DNA of 64,000 nucleotides, taken from positions 744,001-808,000 of the forward strand of contig NZ_OU015321.1 of assembly GCF_907163105.1 (NCBI RefSeq). The letters are read 5' to 3'. Origin of the DNA: Cloacibacterium caeni (GTDB taxonomy: Bacteria > Bacteroidota > Bacteroidia > Flavobacteriales > Weeksellaceae). Made by a program: the position numbers and the translations under genes. Positions 575 to 8,572 of the stretch are shown here, piece by piece; the first letter of the stretch is position 1, and every line of letters begins with the position of its first letter. The notes under the pieces are model-generated. The model was not told where the DNA came from, did not search any database, and saw only the letters and a list, made by a program, of their open reading frames with translations.

Positions 575-603
575 GAAAACAGAGCAATTTGCTCTGTTTT
601 TTA
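575..603. terminator. Bidirectional terminator between the coiled-coil gene and trpA
   Basis: The arms AACAGAGC and GCTCTGTT flank a short AATTT loop. There is an A-run on the left and a T-run on the right, so the hairpin can end transcription from both sides. The T-run overlaps the trpA stop codon. Confidence 0.8.
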
Positions 604-1332
604 TTTAATAGATTTGATGAAAGCTTCCGCTTTTTCTTTCCAATCTTTATTTTCTAGAAGAATTTTCACAAAGGCAGTTCCTATAATTCCGCCTTGTGCT
701 TTTTCTGTAACTTGCTCGAAATCAGATTTATTTATAATTCCGAAACCAATCATTATAGGATTTTCAAGGTTGATGGAAGCTAATTTGTTTAGATATTCAT
801 CATTTTTAACCTCTTTGTTTTCGTTTCCTGTAGTAGAAGAACTAGAAACAGCATACAAAAATCCTGAACTCAAAGAATCTAAATATTGAATGCGTTCTTC
901 CGAAGTTTCTGGAGTCACCAAAAAGGTAAAATTCAATCTATATTTCTCTAAAATAGGTTGATAATTTCTTTCAAACTCAATCGGAGGTAAATCTGGAATA
1001 ATCAGTCCAGAAACTCCAGAATTGGCACATTCTTCGCAGAATTTTTCAAAACCGAAACTTAAAACAGGGTTAATGTAACCCATTAAAATAACAGGAATTT
1101 TGATTTCATCTTTCACCGATTTCAGTTGAGAAAAAAGTTGAGCGATGGTCATTCCGTTAGACAGAGCCAATTCGTGCGCTTCCTGAATTACAGGTCCATC
1201 TGCAACAGGATCAGAATATGGCATCCCAATTTCCATCATATCTGCGCCAGAATTCTGAATGGTTTTCATTATTTCTGTAGTATCTTCCAAAGTGGGAATT
1301 CCCGCAGTAAAATATATATTTAATTTTTTCAT
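601..1332 (-). CDS. trpA: Tryptophan synthase alpha chain
   Basis: 243 residues, close to the usual family length of 250-270. TrpA cleaves indole-3-glycerol phosphate to indole and glyceraldehyde-3-phosphate and passes indole to TrpB. The signature EIGMPYSDPVADGPVIQ places the catalytic acids at Glu34 and Asp45, with the same 11-residue spacing as Glu49/Asp60 of the E. coli enzyme. The phosphate-binding segment GFGI is near residue 197. It is the last gene of the trp operon and starts 10 bases after the PhzF-like gene, so the two are almost certainly co-transcribed. Confidence 0.97.
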   Translation of the reverse strand: MKKLNIYFTAGIPTLEDTTEIMKTIQNSGADMMEIGMPYSDPVADGPVIQEAHELALSNGMTIAQLFSQLKSVKDEIKIPVILMGYINPVLSFGFEKFCEECANSGVSGLIIPDLPPIEFERNYQPILEKYRLNFTFLVTPETSEERIQYLDSLSSGFLYAVSSSSTTGNENKEVKNDEYLNKLASINLENPIMIGFGIINKSDFEQVTEKAQGGIIGTAFVKILLENKDWKEKAEAFIKSIK

Positions 1333-1342
1333 TGTCTTAATT

Positions 1343-2131
1343 TTAATTGATGAATATTTCGCCTTTTAAATAGGTTTTGCACTTTCCGCTGATGAGAACT
1401 CTATCATTTTTGAGTTCACATTCTAAAACCCCACCACGTTTGGAAATTTGTTTTGCAGTAAGTTTAGTTTTGCCCAATTTTTCTGCCCAAAAAGGAGTTA
1501 ATGTAGTATGAGCAGAACCTGTAACAGGATCTTCGTTTACACCGCAATTTGGACCAAAAAATCTAGATACAAAGTCGTAGTTTTCTGAAATAGAACTTAC
1601 AATAACTCCTCTTGCATTAATTTTTGCAATTTCAGGAATGTTGGGTTCTATATTTTGAATTTGATGTTCGTTTTCAAAGATTAACAAATAATCTGTTTTT
1701 CCTTGATATGCTTCAATAGGTTGATACGCAAAACATTTCTCGAAAATAGCTAAATCTTCCACTTTTTGTAAGTTGTCTTTTGGGAAATCTAAAGTTAAAA
1801 AATCTCCGTTTTTGGTTACAGTTAGCGTTCCGCTGTTTCTAGAAAAGAATTTGATTTTTTCCCCCGAAAATCCTTCAAAATTCATCAATGTATAAGCGGA
1901 AGCTAATGTAGCGTGACCGCATAAATCTACTTCTACTTCTGGCGTAAACCAACGAATTTCATAGCCATTTTCTATTGGAACGGTAAATGCAGTTTCTGCC
2001 AAATTATTTTCGGCAGCTATTTTTTGCATTATATCTGTATCTAACCAACTGTCTAACGGACAAACAGCTGCAGGATTTCCCGAAAATAAAGTGTCTGCAA
2101 AAGCGTCTATTTGATATATTTTTTGGCTCAT
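1343..2131 (-). CDS. PhzF-family isomerase-like protein embedded in the trp operon
   Basis: 262 residues of the PhzF/diaminopimelate-epimerase fold. The N-terminal motif QIDAFADTLFSGNPAAVC, the NNLAETAF segment with the family's catalytic Glu, and the C-terminal GVNEDPVTGSAH loop are all present. In phenazine producers PhzF isomerises a chorismate-derived dihydro-hydroxyanthranilate; most relatives are uncharacterised and no other phz gene is here. It sits between trpB and trpA. The start is taken at the ATG at 2131; a TTG two codons upstream is less likely. The real substrate is unknown, although the trp context suggests an aromatic or chorismate-derived compound. Confidence 0.85.
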   Translation of the reverse strand: MSQKIYQIDAFADTLFSGNPAAVCPLDSWLDTDIMQKIAAENNLAETAFTVPIENGYEIRWFTPEVEVDLCGHATLASAYTLMNFEGFSGEKIKFFSRNSGTLTVTKNGDFLTLDFPKDNLQKVEDLAIFEKCFAYQPIEAYQGKTDYLLIFENEHQIQNIEPNIPEIAKINARGVIVSSISENYDFVSRFFGPNCGVNEDPVTGSAHTTLTPFWAEKLGKTKLTAKQISKRGGVLECELKNDRVLISGKCKTYLKGEIFIN

Positions 2132-2182
2132 AATCAATACTTGAGTTTAATTTTATACAAAAATTTCTAATTTTTTCTGAGT

Positions 2183-2281: not shown

Positions 2282-3469
2282 TTATTTATCAATTATTTTC
2301 AGGTAGGTTTCCATATCTTTATCACCACGACCACTTAAACAAATCACCACCACATCGTCTTTTTGGAAATTTTTCTTTTTCAAAACTTGTAAAGCGTGAG
2401 AACTTTCCAAAGCAGGAATGATGCCTTCTAATTTGGTGAGTTCAAAAGCAGATTCTAGCGCTTCGTCATCATTAATGCTGAAAAATTCTGCACGATTATT
2501 TTTAAATAGATTCGCGTGAAAAGGCCCTATTCCTGGATAATCTAACCCCGCTGAAATAGAGTGCGGTTCTATCACTTGTCCGTCATTGGTTTGCATCACA
2601 ATACTTTTGCTACCGTGCAAAACGCCTGTTGTTCCCAAGAAAGTTGTAGCTGCAGATTTTCCTGAATTTACACCAAAACCACCAGCTTCAGCAGCAATAA
2701 TTTTCACACTCGGTTCATCTACAAAATGGTAGAAAGTTCCTGCAGCATTGCTTCCGCCACCAACACAAGCGATAACGTAATCAGGATTTTCTCTGCCTAT
2801 TTTCTCTTTCAACTGCCATTTAATTTCCTCAGAAATCACACTCTGGAATCTCGCCACCAAATCAGGAAAAGGATGCGGACCAACTACACTTCCGATGATG
2901 TAATGTGTGGTAGTCGCGTTATTAATCCAATCTCTTAATGCTTCATTTACAGCGTCTTTCAATGTTTTAGAACCCGAAGTTGCAGGTACAACTTTTGCAC
3001 CTAGCATTTTCATTCTGGCAACGTTGGGAGCTTGTCTCGCAATATCGATTTCACCCATATAAACGATGCACTCCAGATTCATTAAAGCGCAAGCTGTGGC
3101 TGTTGCAACACCGTGCTGTCCTGCTCCTGTTTCGGCGATAATGCGTTTTTTTCCTAGTTTTTTGGCGAGAAGAACTTGTCCGAGAGCGTTATTGATTTTA
3201 TGCGCACCAGTATGATTTAAGTCTTCGCGTTTTAGGTAAACGTTTGTGCCGTATTTTTCGCTTAAATTTTTGGCAAAATAAAGTGGAGTAGCTCTTCCTA
3301 CATAATCTTTCAATAAATCGTTGAGTTCTTTTTTGAATTCTTCAGATTCTATAATTTCTATATAATTTTGTTGAAGTTCTTCCACGTTTGGATAGAGCAT
3401 TTCTGGAACAAATGCGCCTCCAAATTCTCCGTAATATCCGTTTTCGTCGGGATTTCTATATGTTGTCAT
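2282..3469 (-). CDS. trpB: Tryptophan synthase beta chain
   Basis: 395 residues, typical length. TrpB condenses indole with L-serine to make tryptophan, using pyridoxal phosphate. The PLP lysine is Lys91 in [13 protein letters not shown], the glutamate-bearing [13 protein letters not shown] segment follows, and the phosphate-binding GGGSNA loop is near residue 235. Its ATG overlaps the trpF stop by four bases (ATGA), giving translational coupling. A 150-base spacer with an inverted repeat separates it from the next gene. Confidence 0.98.
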
Positions 3470-4113
3470 TTCAGTAATGATTTAAATGTTTTTATTGTTT
3501 CTAGGTCTTTAATTCCAGGTTCTGTCTCAAATTTTGAGTTGATGTCTAGCGCCAATGGTTGATGGTTGATGGTTGATAGTTGATGGATGTTTTCCAAAGA
3601 AATTCCGCCGCTTAAAAAATACGGTTTTGGGATTTCTATTTGGTTAAGAATTTGCCAATCAAAGGTTTTTCCTGTTCCGCCAAAAGCTTTGCTGTCTGTG
3701 TCGAAAAGGAAATAATCAACCAAAGAATTGAAAACTGAAAATTGAAAATTGAAAGTTTCTCCAACTCTAAAAACTTTGATAATTTTTATCTTTTCATCTA
3801 AATTTTTTCTCAATTTTGAAATAAAGTTTTCATCTTCATCACCATGTAATTGTATGAAATTCAAATTGGTTTTTTCTGTAATTTTTACAATTTTTTCAAT
3901 CGATTCATTCACAAAAACACCTACTTTTCCTTGATGATTAATTTCTGAAATCTCTTCTAAGCTTAGATGATTTAAAACAAATCTTGGAGATTTTTCATAA
4001 AAGATAAAGCCCAAAAAATCTGTATTCAAAGAAATTAATTCTTGAATTTGATTAATTTTTGTAAGTCCACAAACTTTTAGTTGATAGTTGTTGGTTGATG
4101 GTTGTTGGCTCAT
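3466..4113 (-). CDS. trpF: Phosphoribosylanthranilate isomerase
   Basis: 215 residues, the usual (beta/alpha)8 length. It performs the Amadori rearrangement of PRA to CdRP. The motif KVCGLT carries the catalytic Cys, HGDE lies mid-protein, the catalytic Asp is in LFDTDS, and the phosphate-binding FLSGGIS follows. Two stretches are encoded by the dispersed GTTGATGGTTGATG word: the first residues ([11 protein letters not shown]) and an internal loop ([16 protein letters not shown] 3555-3590). The repeat appears to have been captured into the gene. Confidence 0.95.
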
Positions 4114-4122
4114 TTTAATTTT

Positions 4123-4152
4123 AAAATTATCACATTATCAAATTATCACATC
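4123..4152. repeat. Short CACATTATCA-type direct repeat at the trpC 3' end
   Basis: Units of the type TTATCACA/TTATCAAA run across the trpF-trpC spacer into the last codons of trpC. The same octamer family occurs at 26466-26523 and there also abuts the 3' end of a minus-strand gene. Confidence 0.55.
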
Positions 4153-4914
4153 AACAAATTCTTTGAATTTGTTCCCTGGGTTTTCGTTTTTCATGAAATA
4201 TTCTCCCATCAAAAAAGCATCAAATCCTTTTTCTTTCAAAAATTTAAAGTCTTCCACATTGTAAATTCCACTTTCCGCAACAGATAAAGTTCCTTTTGGA
4301 AGCAGATTTTTCAGATTGACAGAATGTTGTAAATCTACTTTGAAATCTTTCAAATTTCGGTTGTTGATGCCTACCAAATCAATTTCAGAATTGAAGTGTT
4401 CTAATTCTTCTTCGGTGTGAATCTCCAGTAAAACTTCTAAATTCAATTCGTGTGCTAAAGCGGTTAATTCTTGAACTTGAGTTGGCGAAAGACATGCTGC
4501 AATGAGTAAAACAACATCTGCACCTATAGATTTTGCTTCGTAGAATTGATATTCATCAACCATAAAATCTTTCCTTAAAATCGGAATATTCACAGAATTT
4601 CTCACGCTCAAAATATCTTCAAAACTACCTCCAAAAAAGTCTTTATCAGTGAGAATTGAAATTCCACTTGCACCGAATTCTTCATATTTCGTTACCACTT
4701 CTAAAGGTGAAACTTGATTATTGATGATTCCTTTTGAAGGCGATTGTCTCTTGAATTCAGCAATAATTCCGTTTCTGGCTTGTACCGATTCTTTCAAAGA
4801 AAAAGTTTCTCTTCCAAAATATTCCGAATTTTTCAGTTCTTCAACAGAAATTTTACTTTTAGAGAAAGCAATTTCTTCCCTTTTTCGAGCTACTATTTTA
4901 TCTAAAATATTCAT
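4138..4914 (-). CDS. trpC: Indole-3-glycerol phosphate synthase
   Basis: 258 residues, a stand-alone TrpC rather than a TrpCF fusion. It closes the indole ring, converting CdRP to indole-3-glycerol phosphate. Landmarks: the N-terminal ILDKIVARKREE helix, IAEFKRQSPSKG with the catalytic lysine, ILRKDFMVDEYQ, GINNRNLKDF, and the C-terminal SVAESGI phosphate site. The last residues (VDVII) are read through a short CACATCA repeat. It is separated from trpD by a 74-base spacer holding an inverted repeat and from trpF by 24 bases. Confidence 0.97.
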   Translation of the reverse strand: MNILDKIVARKREEIAFSKSKISVEELKNSEYFGRETFSLKESVQARNGIIAEFKRQSPSKGIINNQVSPLEVVTKYEEFGASGISILTDKDFFGGSFEDILSVRNSVNIPILRKDFMVDEYQFYEAKSIGADVVLLIAACLSPTQVQELTALAHELNLEVLLEIHTEEELEHFNSEIDLVGINNRNLKDFKVDLQHSVNLKNLLPKGTLSVAESGIYNVEDFKFLKEKGFDAFLMGEYFMKNENPGNKFKEFVDVII

Positions 4915-4988: not shown

Positions 4989-5978
4989 TTATTTTATAAT
5001 TAATTTATTCAAACATTCTAGCGCTTTTCCGCTTTCTAAACTCTCTTTTGCATCAGCTAAACTCGTTTCGTAATTCTCAAATTTCCCAGTATTTTGAAGC
5101 GCTTTTGCAGCATTGGAGAGAACTACGGCGTTTTGTTCATACGTTCCTTTTCCTTCTAAAATATTTCTGAAAATTTTGGACGCTTCTTCTTTGGTATTTC
5201 CACCGAAAATGGTTTCTGCTTCTATGTTTTTAAATCCTAATTCTGTTGCAGAGAAAATTTCTTCGCCATTTTTGTTGAAAATTTTGGTGTCGCCAGTCAA
5301 AGAAATCTCGTCGTAACCGTCTAGAGCGTGAACCAACATAAAATTTTCGTTGTTTTTCTGCAAAATATATTGATACAACCTCGCAATTTCTAAACTGTAA
5401 ACACCAATCATTGAAAATTTTGGTTTTGCAGGATTTACCAATGGTCCTAAAAGATTGAAAAACGTTCTCAAACCCAAACCTTTTCTCAAAGGAGCAACCG
5501 ATTTCAACGCTGGATGAAAAAGAGGAGCGTGAAGAAAACAAATGTTGGCTTTTTCTAAATCTTTCTTTAAATCTTCCTGATTATCTTTGAACTGATAGCC
5601 CAATTCTTCTAAAACATTAGACGAACCGGAAATCGCAGAAACACCGTAATTGCCGTGTTTCGCCACTTTTTGTCCGGTTCCGGCCACAATAAAACTTGCC
5701 AAAGTAGAAATATTGAAGGTGTTTTTTCCATCGCCTCCAGTTCCTACAATGTCCACTAAATCATCTATTCCTAAATCAATAGGTTTTGCCAACTGCAACA
5801 GAGCTTCGCGGAAGCCTTGCATTTCTTCCAGCGTAATGCTTCGCATCATAAAAACCGTGATAAACGCCGAAACTTCTGTTTCGTTGAATTTATTTTGTGC
5901 AATTTCAATCATTATTGCCTTTGCTTCGGCTTTGGTCAATGTTTGATGATTGAAAAGGTATTGTAAAATTTGTTTCAT
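4989..5978 (-). CDS. trpD: Anthranilate phosphoribosyltransferase
   Basis: 329 residues, family length. It transfers the phosphoribosyl group of PRPP to anthranilate. The glycine-rich PRPP-binding motif GTGGDGKNTFNIST is near residue 81, followed by KHGNYGVSAISGSSNVLEELG and, later, RTFFNLLGPLVNPA, all diagnostic for TrpD. It starts one base after the trpG stop, so coupling is tight. It is not fused to TrpG, unlike some enterobacterial proteins. Confidence 0.97.
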   Translation of the reverse strand: MKQILQYLFNHQTLTKAEAKAIMIEIAQNKFNETEVSAFITVFMMRSITLEEMQGFREALLQLAKPIDLGIDDLVDIVGTGGDGKNTFNISTLASFIVAGTGQKVAKHGNYGVSAISGSSNVLEELGYQFKDNQEDLKKDLEKANICFLHAPLFHPALKSVAPLRKGLGLRTFFNLLGPLVNPAKPKFSMIGVYSLEIARLYQYILQKNNENFMLVHALDGYDEISLTGDTKIFNKNGEEIFSATELGFKNIEAETIFGGNTKEEASKIFRNILEGKGTYEQNAVVLSNAAKALQNTGKFENYETSLADAKESLESGKALECLNKLIIK

Positions 5979-5979
5979 T

Positions 5980-6546
5980 TTAATTTTTCAAAAAATTGAT
6001 TAAAATTTCTCTTCCTTTTGGAGTTAAAATACTTTCAGGATGATATTGAACAGCGTGAACGTCGTATTCTTTGTGTTTCAGGCTCATAATCATTCCAGAA
6101 TTATCAACAGAAGTAATTTCTAATTGCTCAGGAAAATCTTCGGGATTTACTGCCCAAGAATGATAGCGCCCAACTTCTAAAACTTCGGGTAAATTTTCTA
6201 GAATTTTGTGAGGTTTTACCTGTTTGGCTTCGGTGGCAACTCCGTGATAAATTTCAGAAAGATTGATGAGACTTCCTCCAAAAGCTTCTGCAATCGCTTG
6301 TTGACCAAGACAAACTCCGAAAATAGATTTGGTTGGAGCATATTTTTTTATCACTTCTAATAAAATTCCCGCTTCTTCTGGAATTCCAGGTCCTGGAGAA
6401 AGGATGATTTTATCATATTGATTGATGTCTTCCAAAGGAATTTCGTCATTTCTGAAGACATCTACTTTTTCGCCCAAAATTTGTTCTACAATTTGAACGA
6501 GATTGTAGGTAAAACTATCGTAATTATCGAAAACTAAAACTTTCAT
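5980..6546 (-). CDS. trpG: Anthranilate synthase component II (glutamine amidotransferase)
   Basis: 188 residues, a class I glutamine amidotransferase. The catalytic triad is visible: Cys79 in FGVCLGQQA, and His169 and Glu171 in VQYHPES. The oxyanion region LSPGPGIP is at about residue 49. It supplies ammonia to TrpE. The genome may also use it for para-aminobenzoate synthesis, as some bacteria do, but that cannot be judged here. Its ATG overlaps the trpE stop by four bases (ATGA). Confidence 0.96.
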   Translation of the reverse strand: MKVLVFDNYDSFTYNLVQIVEQILGEKVDVFRNDEIPLEDINQYDKIILSPGPGIPEEAGILLEVIKKYAPTKSIFGVCLGQQAIAEAFGGSLINLSEIYHGVATEAKQVKPHKILENLPEVLEVGRYHSWAVNPEDFPEQLEITSVDNSGMIMSLKHKEYDVHAVQYHPESILTPKGREILINFLKN

Positions 6547-7976
6547 AATTTTTCTGCTTTTTTAACTGCCATTTTCAAGGCGTTTAGTTTGTTATTCACT
6601 TCTTGTAACTCATTTTCTGCGGAAGATTTGGCTACAATTCCAGCGCCAGCCTGATAGAAAAGCGTATTATTTTTGCTTAAAAATGTTCTAATCATAATTG
6701 CTTGGTTACAGCTTCCATCAAAACCTACAAAGCCAATACAACCGCCATAATAACCGCGAGAAGTTTTTTCGTAAGCATCGATGAGTTCAAGAGCTTTATA
6801 TTTTGGAGCGCCACTCAAAGTTCCTTGTGGAAAAGTAGTCGCAATCATTTCAAATGGATTGGTTTTTTCGTCTAATTCTGCGGTGACTTCTGAAACCATG
6901 TGAATCACGTGAGAAAACAACTGAATTTCTTTTAATTTAGAAACCGTTACATTTTTCCCTAGTTTGCTTAAATCGTTTCTGGCTAAATCTACCAACATGG
7001 TGTGTTCTGCGTTTTCTTTTGGGTCTTTTTTTAAGGTTTCTACCGATTTTAAGTCTTTTTCAGTGTCGCCAGTTCTGCGGAAAGTTCCTGCAATTGGATG
7101 AATTACAGCTTTATGATTTTGAATAATCAGCTGACTTTCTGGACTTGAACCCATTAATTTGTAATCGCCGTAATCAAAGAAAAATAGGTAAGGAGAAGGA
7201 TTGATGTTTCGTAAAGCTCGGTAAACATTGAATTCATCACCTTTGAATTTTTGTTCAAATCTTCTGCTTAAAACCAACTGGAAAACATCTCCACGGAAAC
7301 AATGTTTCTTCGCCAATTCTACCAAATCTCTATATTCATCATCACTTAAATTAGAAGTTTCTTCGTCTATTTTTTCGAAAGGGTAGAGTGCAACGTCTTT
7401 ATTTTGAATGATGCTTTCAATTTCTGAAAGCTCTGATTTTAGACCATCAATTTTATTTTCGATGAGAAACATTTCATCATTAAAATGATTAATAGCAATC
7501 ACATATTGATAAAATCTGTAACGTAAAATTGGGATTTCTACTTCCTTGCTTTGAGGTTTGAATTGGATGGTTTCAAAAAACTGTACGGCATCAAAACTGG
7601 TATAACCAAATAAACCTTGAGCCATTTTTTCAACTGGATTTTTTACCTTTTCGCAATCAAAACTTTTAGAAAAATTTTCTAAATATTCAGTGATGTTGAA
7701 ATTTTCTGGAATTTGATGTTTTTCTGGAGCGGTTAATGGAAATTTTACTTCCATTTCCTGTTGGTTTTTAATTTCTACTCCTGCAATTGCATTAATCGCG
7801 ATGTAAGAAAAACTGTTGTTATTTACATTGTGGTCGGCACTTTCCAGTAGAATGGTATCTCTGAATTTATCTCTGAGTTTCAGGTAAATTCCCATCGCTG
7901 TATGAAGGTCTCCCATCAATGATTTGGAGGTGGTTTTTATTTTAGTTGTGGGTTGTTGGTTGTTGGTTGTCAGCAT
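6543..7976 (-). CDS. trpE: Anthranilate synthase component I
   Basis: 477 residues. It converts chorismate plus ammonia to anthranilate. The N-terminal LLESADH motif is the tryptophan feedback-binding element. The C-terminal chorismate-binding domain shows GSSPESQLI, HPIAGTFRRTGD, FPQGTLSGAPKYKALELID and YYGGCIGFVGFDG. The first 10 or so residues (LTTNNQQPTT) are encoded by the dispersed CAACAACCAACAACC word and probably are not an ancient part of the enzyme; no later ATG precedes the conserved region. It is the first structural gene of the operon, behind a Trp attenuator. Confidence 0.96.
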   Translation of the reverse strand: MLTTNNQQPTTKIKTTSKSLMGDLHTAMGIYLKLRDKFRDTILLESADHNVNNNSFSYIAINAIAGVEIKNQQEMEVKFPLTAPEKHQIPENFNITEYLENFSKSFDCEKVKNPVEKMAQGLFGYTSFDAVQFFETIQFKPQSKEVEIPILRYRFYQYVIAINHFNDEMFLIENKIDGLKSELSEIESIIQNKDVALYPFEKIDEETSNLSDDEYRDLVELAKKHCFRGDVFQLVLSRRFEQKFKGDEFNVYRALRNINPSPYLFFFDYGDYKLMGSSPESQLIIQNHKAVIHPIAGTFRRTGDTEKDLKSVETLKKDPKENAEHTMLVDLARNDLSKLGKNVTVSKLKEIQLFSHVIHMVSEVTAELDEKTNPFEMIATTFPQGTLSGAPKYKALELIDAYEKTSRGYYGGCIGFVGFDGSCNQAIMIRTFLSKNNTLFYQAGAGIVAKSSAENELQEVNNKLNALKMAVKKAEKL

Positions 7977-7991
7977 AATTAAAGATTTAAA

Positions 7992-8030
7992 TAAAAAAAA
8001 GACTTCAACGGTATAATCGCTGAAGTCTTC
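7992..8030 (-). terminator. Trp attenuator terminator
   Basis: On the minus strand AAGACTTCA pairs with TGAAGTCTT (plus 8021-8029 and 7999-8007) around a GCGATTATACCGT segment, followed by a run of nine T. It lies between the Trp-rich leader peptide and trpE, so it must be bypassed for the operon to be expressed. Its 5' arm can instead pair with the leader at 8084-8093. Confidence 0.88.
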
Positions 8031-8076
8031 TCATGAAATGAATTTTATTTTATTATAGATTCAAAGCATAGCAGTA

Positions 8077-8139
8077 TTACCTTAGACTCAGCGTAGAGTA
8101 TAAGTGCCACCACCAATTTTTGTTATTATTCATTTTCAT
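8077..8139 (-). CDS. trpL: trp operon leader peptide (attenuator peptide)
   Basis: A 20-codon frame whose middle reads N-W-W-W-H-L-Y: three tandem TGG codons at 8107-8115. It ends at TAA 8077-8079. A second in-frame ATG lies at 8133. The codons after the Trp run contain CGCTGAGTCT (8084-8093), complementary to AGACTTCAGCG of the terminator 5' arm with one bulged base. A ribosome stalled on the Trp codons would leave this segment free to form an antiterminator; a ribosome at the stop codon would mask it. The gene is too short for normal gene finding, but the codon run plus the matched hairpins make it convincing. Confidence 0.88.
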   Translation of the reverse strand: MKMNNNKNWWWHLYSTLSLR

Positions 8140-8144
8140 TGGGG

Positions 8145-8152
8145 CAAATTTA
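8145..8152 (-). promoter_or_regulatory. Candidate -7 element of the trp operon promoter
   Basis: TAAATTTG fits TAnnTTTG exactly and stands only five bases upstream of the first leader-peptide ATG. If used, the transcript would start at or next to that ATG, so the leader would be leaderless or nearly so, or would use the second ATG. Confidence 0.5.
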
Positions 8153-8170
8153 TAAAAGTTTTTGAAATAA

Positions 8171-8200
8171 AAAAATCCTAAACAAAAAAAGTTTAGGATT
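8171..8200 (-). terminator. Terminator of the thrS-infC-rpmI-rplT operon
   Basis: AATCCTAAAC pairs perfectly with GTTTAGGATT around an A7/T7 loop. On the minus strand it is followed by a T-run. It lies just downstream of rplT and upstream of the trp promoter. Confidence 0.88.
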
Positions 8201-8227
8201 TATTATTGATAACAAATTTGTTTTACA

Positions 8228-8572
8228 TTATTTTACTTGATCTACAACAGCTTTGAAAGCTTCTGGATGATTCATTGCAAGGTCTGCAAGAACTTTTCTG
8301 TTTAGCTCGATGTTGTTCTTTTTAAGAGCTCCCATAAATTGAGAGTAAGACATTCCGTGTTCTCTAGTTCCAGCGTTAATTCTGGTAATCCAAAGTCCTC
8401 TGAAGCTTCTTTTCTTCTCTTTTCTACCGCGGTAAGCATATTGCATTGCTTTTTCTACGGCATTTTTAGCAACAGTCCAAACATTTTTTCTTCTACCGAA
8501 AAAACCTTTAGCCTGCTTTAAAACTTTTTTTCTGCGCGCTCTAGACGCTACAGCGTTTACTGATCTTGGCAT
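8228..8572 (-). CDS. rplT: 50S ribosomal protein L20
   Basis: 114 residues, family length. L20 is essential for early 50S assembly. The basic N-terminus ([20 protein letters not shown]) and the [21 protein letters not shown] core are diagnostic. It is the last gene of the infC-rpmI-rplT cluster and is preceded by an unusually long 129-base spacer with GC-rich islands, a possible L20 autoregulatory leader. Confidence 0.98.

Follow-up and report, generated by a model that had tools for sequence, protein, structure and literature searches.

The trp attenuator of Escherichia coli is built from four leader segments, with two Trp codons before segment 1, competing helices 1:2, 2:3 and 3:4, and a U-run. 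In the Bacteroidota, a Trp leader RNA was published in 2010 as RF01692 (Bacteroid-trp) by Weinberg et al. (PMC2864571). For Flavobacterium psychrophilum, an E. coli-like Trp leader has been discussed (PMC6414381) and indications that amino-acid operons are attenuated through leader peptides were described (PMC9723704), as far as the accessible text of these papers goes. Leaderless initiation is discussed for ilvBNC of C. glutamicum in the available part of the source, and leaderless attenuators are, according to the accessible literature, already known in Sinorhizobium and actinobacteria. Among the matches listed from the open-access literature, available in part, no report of a leaderless attenuator in Bacteroidota was found. 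An initial annotation of the locus described here, made from the sequence alone, had called Trp attenuation little described in this phylum. This is partly right, and is qualified by the precedents of RF01692, PMC6414381 and PMC9723704. Trp attenuation in Bacteroidota is already known; the leaderless design is what stands out.

We analyzed a stretch of 64,000 nucleotides from Cloacibacterium caeni, referred to as the window. On its minus strand we found, in this order, rplT, an inverted repeat with a T-run, the leader, trpEGDCFB, a phzF-like gene and trpA (Table 1). Between rplT and trpE lies a leader of 20 codons, MKMNNNKNWWWHLYSTLSLR, followed by an intrinsic terminator. The trp genes probably form one transcript. 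A PhzF-family gene sits between trpB and trpA inside the operon. The TrpE of the window is 97% identical to the TrpE of the related genome G080. We conclude that the interval is very probably a ribosome-mediated trp operon attenuator of the E. coli four-segment type, read from an essentially leaderless mRNA. Its anatomy and conservation, three helices with compensatory changes and the promoter spacing are shown by the comparison of related sequences.

Table 1. Features of the trp locus in the window, in the direction of transcription.
Feature	Position	Strand	Basis
-7 promoter element TAAATTTG	8145-8152	-	sequence; Bacteroidota sigma-A consensus TAnnTTTG (PMC9723704, accessible part)
Predicted transcription start, A, fifth nt after TTTG, 1-nt 5' UTR	8140	-	deduced from spacing
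Leader peptide ORF MKMNNNKNWWWHLYSTLSLR, 20 codons and TAA	8077-8139	-	ORF reading
Three consecutive Trp codons (TGG TGG TGG), codons 9-11	8107-8115	-	sequence
Segment 1, partner of 8089-8081 (1:2 hairpin)	8096-8104	-	alignment pairing and covariation
Segment 2 (8093-8084, CGCTGAGTCT, partner of segment 3; 8089-8081, partner of segment 1)	8081-8093	-	alignment pairing
Segment 3 AGACTTCAGCG, terminator 5' arm and antiterminator target	8018-8028	-	alignment, duplex energy
Segment 4 CGTTGAAGTCT, terminator 3' arm	8000-8010	-	alignment pairing
Terminator U-run, 8 T, first T shared with segment 4	7993-8000	-	sequence
trpE, first gene of the operon	6543-7976	-	TIGR00564 best match, 408 bits, under curated cut-off 517.7
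trpG	5980-6546	-	NCBIfam match
trpD	4989-5978	-	NCBIfam match
trpC	4138-4914	-	NCBIfam match
trpF	3466-4113	-	NCBIfam match
trpB	2282-3469	-	NCBIfam match
phzF-like gene	1343-2137	-	NCBIfam match
trpA	601-1332	-	NCBIfam match

Most of the anatomy had been recognized in the initial annotation. The 20-codon leader with three consecutive TGG codons is present. The terminator was also found, with a loop of 7 nt between AGACTTCAGCG and CGTTGAAGTCT; its U-run, given before as nine T, consists of eight. The alternative pairing with the terminator 5' arm, described with one bulge, is the helix of CGCTGAGTCT with segment 3, in which one U is bulged. This arm had been placed about 14 bases past the last Trp codon, and we counted 13 nt. 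A third helix, 1:2, was absent from that annotation. The 161-nt leader of the window folds with -40.2 kcal/mol, against -23.3 ± 3.3 kcal/mol for 200 dinucleotide shuffles (z = -5.1). The duplex of segment 2 and segment 3 reached -14.3 kcal/mol compared with -7.7 ± 1.8 kcal/mol for shuffles, and none of 100 shuffles matched it. When the footprint of a stalled ribosome was removed and only the exposed RNA was folded, helix 2:3 was the predicted minimum free energy structure in the window genome (-14.5 kcal/mol) and also in G186, a genome of the Chryseobacterium group.

Conservation was analyzed in a family set of 197 genomes, 193 of which had some TrpE match, paralogues such as PabB included. 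We read 157 upstream regions, taken from the TrpE loci among the matches listed and from 30 loci of an RF01692 search. Three leaders of genus g16 (L012, L020 and L027) are RF01692-type W leaders before a trpB-like gene, recognized by eye from its likeness to the TrpB of the window. They were excluded, leaving a trpE set of 154. A Trp-rich leader ORF was found in all 154 trpE upstream regions read (among the matches listed) and in 157/157 leaders overall, with three W in 144 and two W within six codons in 13; both the choice of the ORF (the best candidate holding two or more W codons close together) and the selection of RF01692 loci by a model that contains W codons tilt toward a match. The usual motif is NWWW, with the first UGG 24 nt past the start codon. 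Despite the tilt in selection, this constant place and context leaves little room for chance. A terminator was present in 153 of the 154 trpE leaders (156/157 of all); the exception, in genome G156, was later matched by the covariance model R1 described below.

The competing helices were evaluated in an alignment, A1, in which 86 non-redundant leaders were thinned by hand to 50, mostly from Chryseobacterium and Kaistella. Genera g10, g16, g18, g21, g28 and g29 were left out and g15 was dropped, and the following pair counts are valid for A1 only. In the terminator helix 3:4, 99.3% of 549 cells were paired and the covariation was 0.299 versus 0.210 in shuffles. Helix 1:2 was paired in 92.7% of 398 cells, with 28 cells changed on both sides. 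Its covariation was 0.353 versus 0.212 in shuffles and was reached by 0/500 of them; the count of pairs with two-sided change was not above shuffles (245/500 reach it). For the antiterminator helix 2:3, 88.5% of 479 cells were paired, and 19 two-sided cells were counted versus 8.8 in shuffles (reached by 0/500). Covariation here was 0.232 versus 0.206, with 3/500 shuffles reaching the score and 4/500 the percentage, and neither the two-sided pair count nor the pair-type count was above shuffles (429/500 and 444/500 reach them). Helix 2:3 thus has the weakest covariation of the three, and its case is carried mainly by the 19 two-sided cells and the slid controls. All three helices exceed every slid control in cells paired and in covariation score. 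Since the structures were drawn from the A1 sequences themselves, the percentages of paired cells lean in their favor, and related sequences can beat shuffles even without structure. Compensatory changes are exemplified in A1 by CGCTGAGTCT/AGACTTCAGCG in Cloacibacterium versus CGTCGGGTCT/AGACTTTGACG in Chryseobacterium for helix 2:3, and by CTTA/TAAG versus TTCA/TGAA for helix 1:2. The alignment of trpE leaders from Chryseobacterium, Cloacibacterium and relatives, which the initial annotation had proposed, therefore found the W-run, the terminator and the alternative pairing conserved with compensatory changes, and the classical E. coli-type logic claimed there appears to hold at the level of sequence.

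Across the family, the duplex of segments 2 and 3 was reached by at most 5/100 dinucleotide shuffles in 98 of 153 trpE leaders (98/156 with three non-trpE leaders). None of the 19 trpE leaders of genera g10, g21 and g28 showed a 2:3 pairing above shuffles (0/22 with g16 included), and the attenuator model is therefore unfit for the leaders of these three genera. Setting g10, g16, g21 and g28 aside, which was done after the result had been seen, leaves 98/134 leaders that pass, and the remaining 36/134 also fail. Folds of six of the 22 leaders revealed other hairpins. Three leaders of g21 and g28 (L005, L008 and L033) carry a GGCTTGTCG/CGACAAGCC terminator and RF01692 matches without a 2:3 pairing above shuffles. 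Judged by their sequences, these appear to be a second architecture within the family.

The leader in the window might be simply another RF01692 RNA with the structure of that model. RF01692 aligns over positions 8159-8035 upstream of trpE, with the leader AUG and the UGG run in register, and it matches 41/197 family genomes at E ≤ 0.001. However, its score in the window is 33.1 bits, under the gathering score of 49, five of the model pairs are non-standard there, and none of the seven genomes of the window's genus was matched at E ≤ 0.001 under strict filters. The helices that are conserved are different ones, namely 1:2, 2:3 and 3:4. Model R1, which contains helices 1:2 and 3:4, matched 131/197 family genomes at E ≤ 1e-5, source rows included, and 141/197 at E ≤ 0.01. 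We consider it unlikely that the RF01692 structure describes this leader. Other Rfam matches at the leader (STnc180, ohsC, PyrR, Phe_leader and others) were far under their cut-offs and were taken as chance.

Outside the family, with three genomes of the window's own family set aside, R1 matched 10/295 class genomes at E ≤ 0.01, all with E of at least 2e-4. Only the match in G305 (family f36) was seen at its trpE. In the locus of G409, the best other match beyond the family, neither TrpE nor a W leader was seen. The remaining matches are likely chance. Of 198 class genomes searched, 64 had a TrpE match, and 62 of these lie outside the family, two being members of it. From 59 genomes 60 upstream regions were obtained, of which 58 were usable (in L202 and L206, at contig ends, the slice lay inside trpE). 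A W leader was present in 45/58, and among these 45 the box gap was 4-6 nt in 12 and at most 8 nt in 22, with ATG or GTG starts. A tally of 46/60 that allowed TTG starts was discarded; it misclassified some leadered genes, among them genes of family f2, as leaderless. Because R1 matches most family genomes, yet beyond the family only G305 at trpE, the four-segment architecture looks largely like a family feature, with W leaders class-wide.

The initial annotation had placed a -7 element five bases from the leader ATG and raised the possibility of a leaderless mRNA. Indeed, 5 nt separate TAAATTTG from the ATG, and the promoter spacing of the family supports a leaderless message. In Flavobacterium the -7 box lies at -12 to -5 (PMC9723704), and promoters with 4 or 5 nt from box to start have been accepted (PMC9723704, PMC6847099), according to the accessible parts of these papers. 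With this spacing, the predicted +1 of the window coincides with the start codon or lies no more than two nucleotides from it. A TAnnTTTG box, matching in five or more of its six letters, ends 4-6 nt before the in-frame start in 132/154 trpE leaders, and leaderless leaders form the majority in 15 of the 19 trpE-leader genera; the genomes are related and these counts are therefore not independent. Among 133 of all 157 leaders the gap was 4 nt in 61, 5 nt in 68 and 6 nt in 4. When the stricter rule used for his leaders was applied, which demands a perfect box, takes the first in-frame ATG inside 15 codons and allows a gap of at most 8, 119/155 trp leaders were leaderless, with g16 leaders still in the set. 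Of 50 ORFs of at least 150 aa in the window, 14 have a box at a gap of 3-30 nt, two of them at 3-6 nt. Published leaderless shares in Bacteroidota are low. In the available text they amount to 5.5% in F. psychrophilum (PMC9723704), transcripts with a leader under 10 nt to about 3.7% in B. thetaiotaomicron, and leaders of more than 10 nt to 87% in F. johnsoniae (PMC6847099).

An attenuator of this kind could also be read from a leadered mRNA that starts further upstream, at a distal promoter or by readthrough from rplT, with the near box being incidental. The gene rplT lies directly upstream, and in 22/154 trpE leaders the nearest perfect box was at least 10 nt away or none was found. Against this, only two of the 132 leaderless trpE leaders have an imperfect near box, the spacing of the box is nearly fixed, and the fifth base after it, the expected +1, is A in 121/132. 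At a gap of 4 this base is the A of the AUG; at a gap of 5 it is usually the A preceding the AUG. In the window, the inverted repeat with its T-run separates rplT from the box. A leadered message is therefore quite improbable here.

In eight genomes of Epilithonimonas (g9) and Kaistella (g26), the ATG 5 nt from the box heads another ORF and the W leader lies further on. In G118 the box-proximal ORF and the W leader share a reading frame; in G068 and G114 the end of this ORF and the start of the leader overlap in an ATGA. In three Epilithonimonas leaders (L061, L088 and L131), the promoter-proximal ATG is directly followed by a stretch with an imperfect palindrome, gacagttacatctgtc; the ORF of this ATG forms an in-frame fusion with the W leader in L131 and shows the ATGA overlap in L061 and L088. 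An in-frame stop inside the TrpE match was observed in two genomes, TAA in G120 and TAG in G065 (genus g29). These trpE genes are possibly pseudogenes or contain sequence errors.

As a control for the leaderless start, leaders before hisG were used. In 60 family genomes hisG was found in 28, and 26 of these 28 have a His-run leader. By the rule applied to trp, none of the 26 His-run leaders before hisG was leaderless. A perfect box was present within 120 nt in 23/26, with the nearest gap at 12-23 nt. A looser scan flagged 2/26 as leaderless (G29 and G6), both via TTG starts. In 17 genomes a leaderless trp leader was accompanied by a leadered his leader, and the reverse combination occurred in none. 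The window genome itself has a His-run leader, MKNLNLIHHHHHLI, before hisG (L343, contig C1 at about 737 kb, outside the window), 19 nt from a box. It is a candidate for a second, leadered attenuator of this genome. Such leaderless trp and leadered his leaders offer a natural pair in one genome for studying how ribosomes start on Bacteroidota messages without Shine-Dalgarno (SD) sequences, and the same pair bears on whether leaderless starts matter for the timing of attenuation. Two further controls were tried and rejected. Upstream of pheA (PF00800), F-rich ORFs were found before 9/30 loci, mutually unlike except in sister genomes, and were given no weight. Upstream of ilvD (PF00920), I/L/V-rich ORFs were found before 10/21 loci, one at a leaderless-like gap of 8; the [ILV] pattern was too loose. 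One ilvD locus (L400, genome G056) has an I/V/L-rich leader, MKNYFNIIITLIIVIIGLQ, upstream. No ilvD match was found in the window's own genome.

From these data we infer a transcription start, ribosome positions and a Trp response as follows. RNA polymerase would start at the leader AUG or at the A that precedes it, and a ribosome would load on this 5'-terminal AUG. When Trp-tRNA is scarce, the ribosome would stall on the UGG triplet and cover segment 1, leaving segment 2 free. Helix 2:3 could then form, the terminator would be blocked and trpE transcribed. With plentiful Trp-tRNA the ribosome would proceed as far as the stop codon, which in Cloacibacterium adjoins segment 2; a ribosome waiting there should mask this segment. 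The initial annotation had claimed such masking, and for Cloacibacterium the claim seems to apply. It does not extend to a general rule, since only 34/134 leaders have a stop inside segment 2 or at most 5 nt from it. In 98/134, among them each of the 49 leaders counted for g20 (Chryseobacterium), the stop is at least 15 nt beyond segment 2. A ribosome at so distant a stop must leave part of segment 2 uncovered, and in these species the 1:2 hairpin would instead re-form behind the ribosome. With segment 2 masked or helix 1:2 re-formed, helix 3:4 would form and transcription would end.

Tentatively, the leaderless start might be more than an accident. It is possible, and to us somewhat doubtful, that selection has made this start a functional component of the trp attenuator in Weeksellaceae and in scattered other Bacteroidota, where it would replace 5'-UTR-based loading. 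If so, the emerging 5' end would immediately receive a ribosome, in a phylum that lacks Shine-Dalgarno sequences, and in the his leaders of these genomes a 5' UTR of about 15 nt would serve the same purpose of loading. The expression of trp would then be coupled to whatever alters leaderless translation, such as the state of an initiation factor or of the ribosome.

By analogy with rnTrpL/peTrpL of Sinorhizobium meliloti, the terminated leaderless RNA or its peptide could in addition act in trans. The anatomy is similar as far as the accessible text describes it, with an AUG at the 5' end, a Trp leader peptide and attenuation (PMC7298713). Outside the W-run, however, the peptide differs between genera and so does not suggest a conserved peptide function. 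An action in trans seems very unlikely. That the terminator is an ordinary intrinsic one with the W-run as a by-product, and control lies with a Trp-binding protein or a T-box, is hardly credible: intrinsic terminators and short ORFs are common, but a W-rich ORF is present in all 154 trpE upstream regions read, the antiterminator pairing is conserved, and no T-box was among the nine covariance-model matches at E ≤ 5 in positions 7800-8400 (601 bases).

The leaderless four-segment attenuator has known relatives. With the attenuator of the E. coli trp operon it has in common the four segments, the position of the Trp codons ahead of segment 1, the competing helices and the U-run. The leader described here differs in having three Trp codons instead of two, hardly any 5' UTR and a stop codon that often lies well past segment 2. 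With RF01692 it shares the character of a Bacteroidota Trp leader RNA with AUG and UGG run in register; of the 30 RF01692 family loci examined, 27 lie upstream of trpE and three upstream of a trpB-like gene. It departs from RF01692 in its score below gathering, its non-standard pairs and the conserved helices it has instead. Where the literature found, in its accessible parts, offered a covariance model and general remarks, the family comparison provides a complete four-segment attenuator with comparative support. A leaderless start had been regarded as unusual for attenuation, and two cases described in the available text qualify this view. In Sinorhizobium meliloti, the trpL/rnTrpL transcript begins at the trpL ATG and trpE(G) is subject to attenuation; in contrast to our locus, this is an Alphaproteobacterium. 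Trans activity has been reported there (PMC7298713). Streptomyces lividans trpL1 also encodes a leaderless leader peptide with WWW (MFAHSTRNWWWTAHPAAH) before trpE, but there trpE is monocistronic and the genus has 17% leaderless transcripts (PMC8079986).
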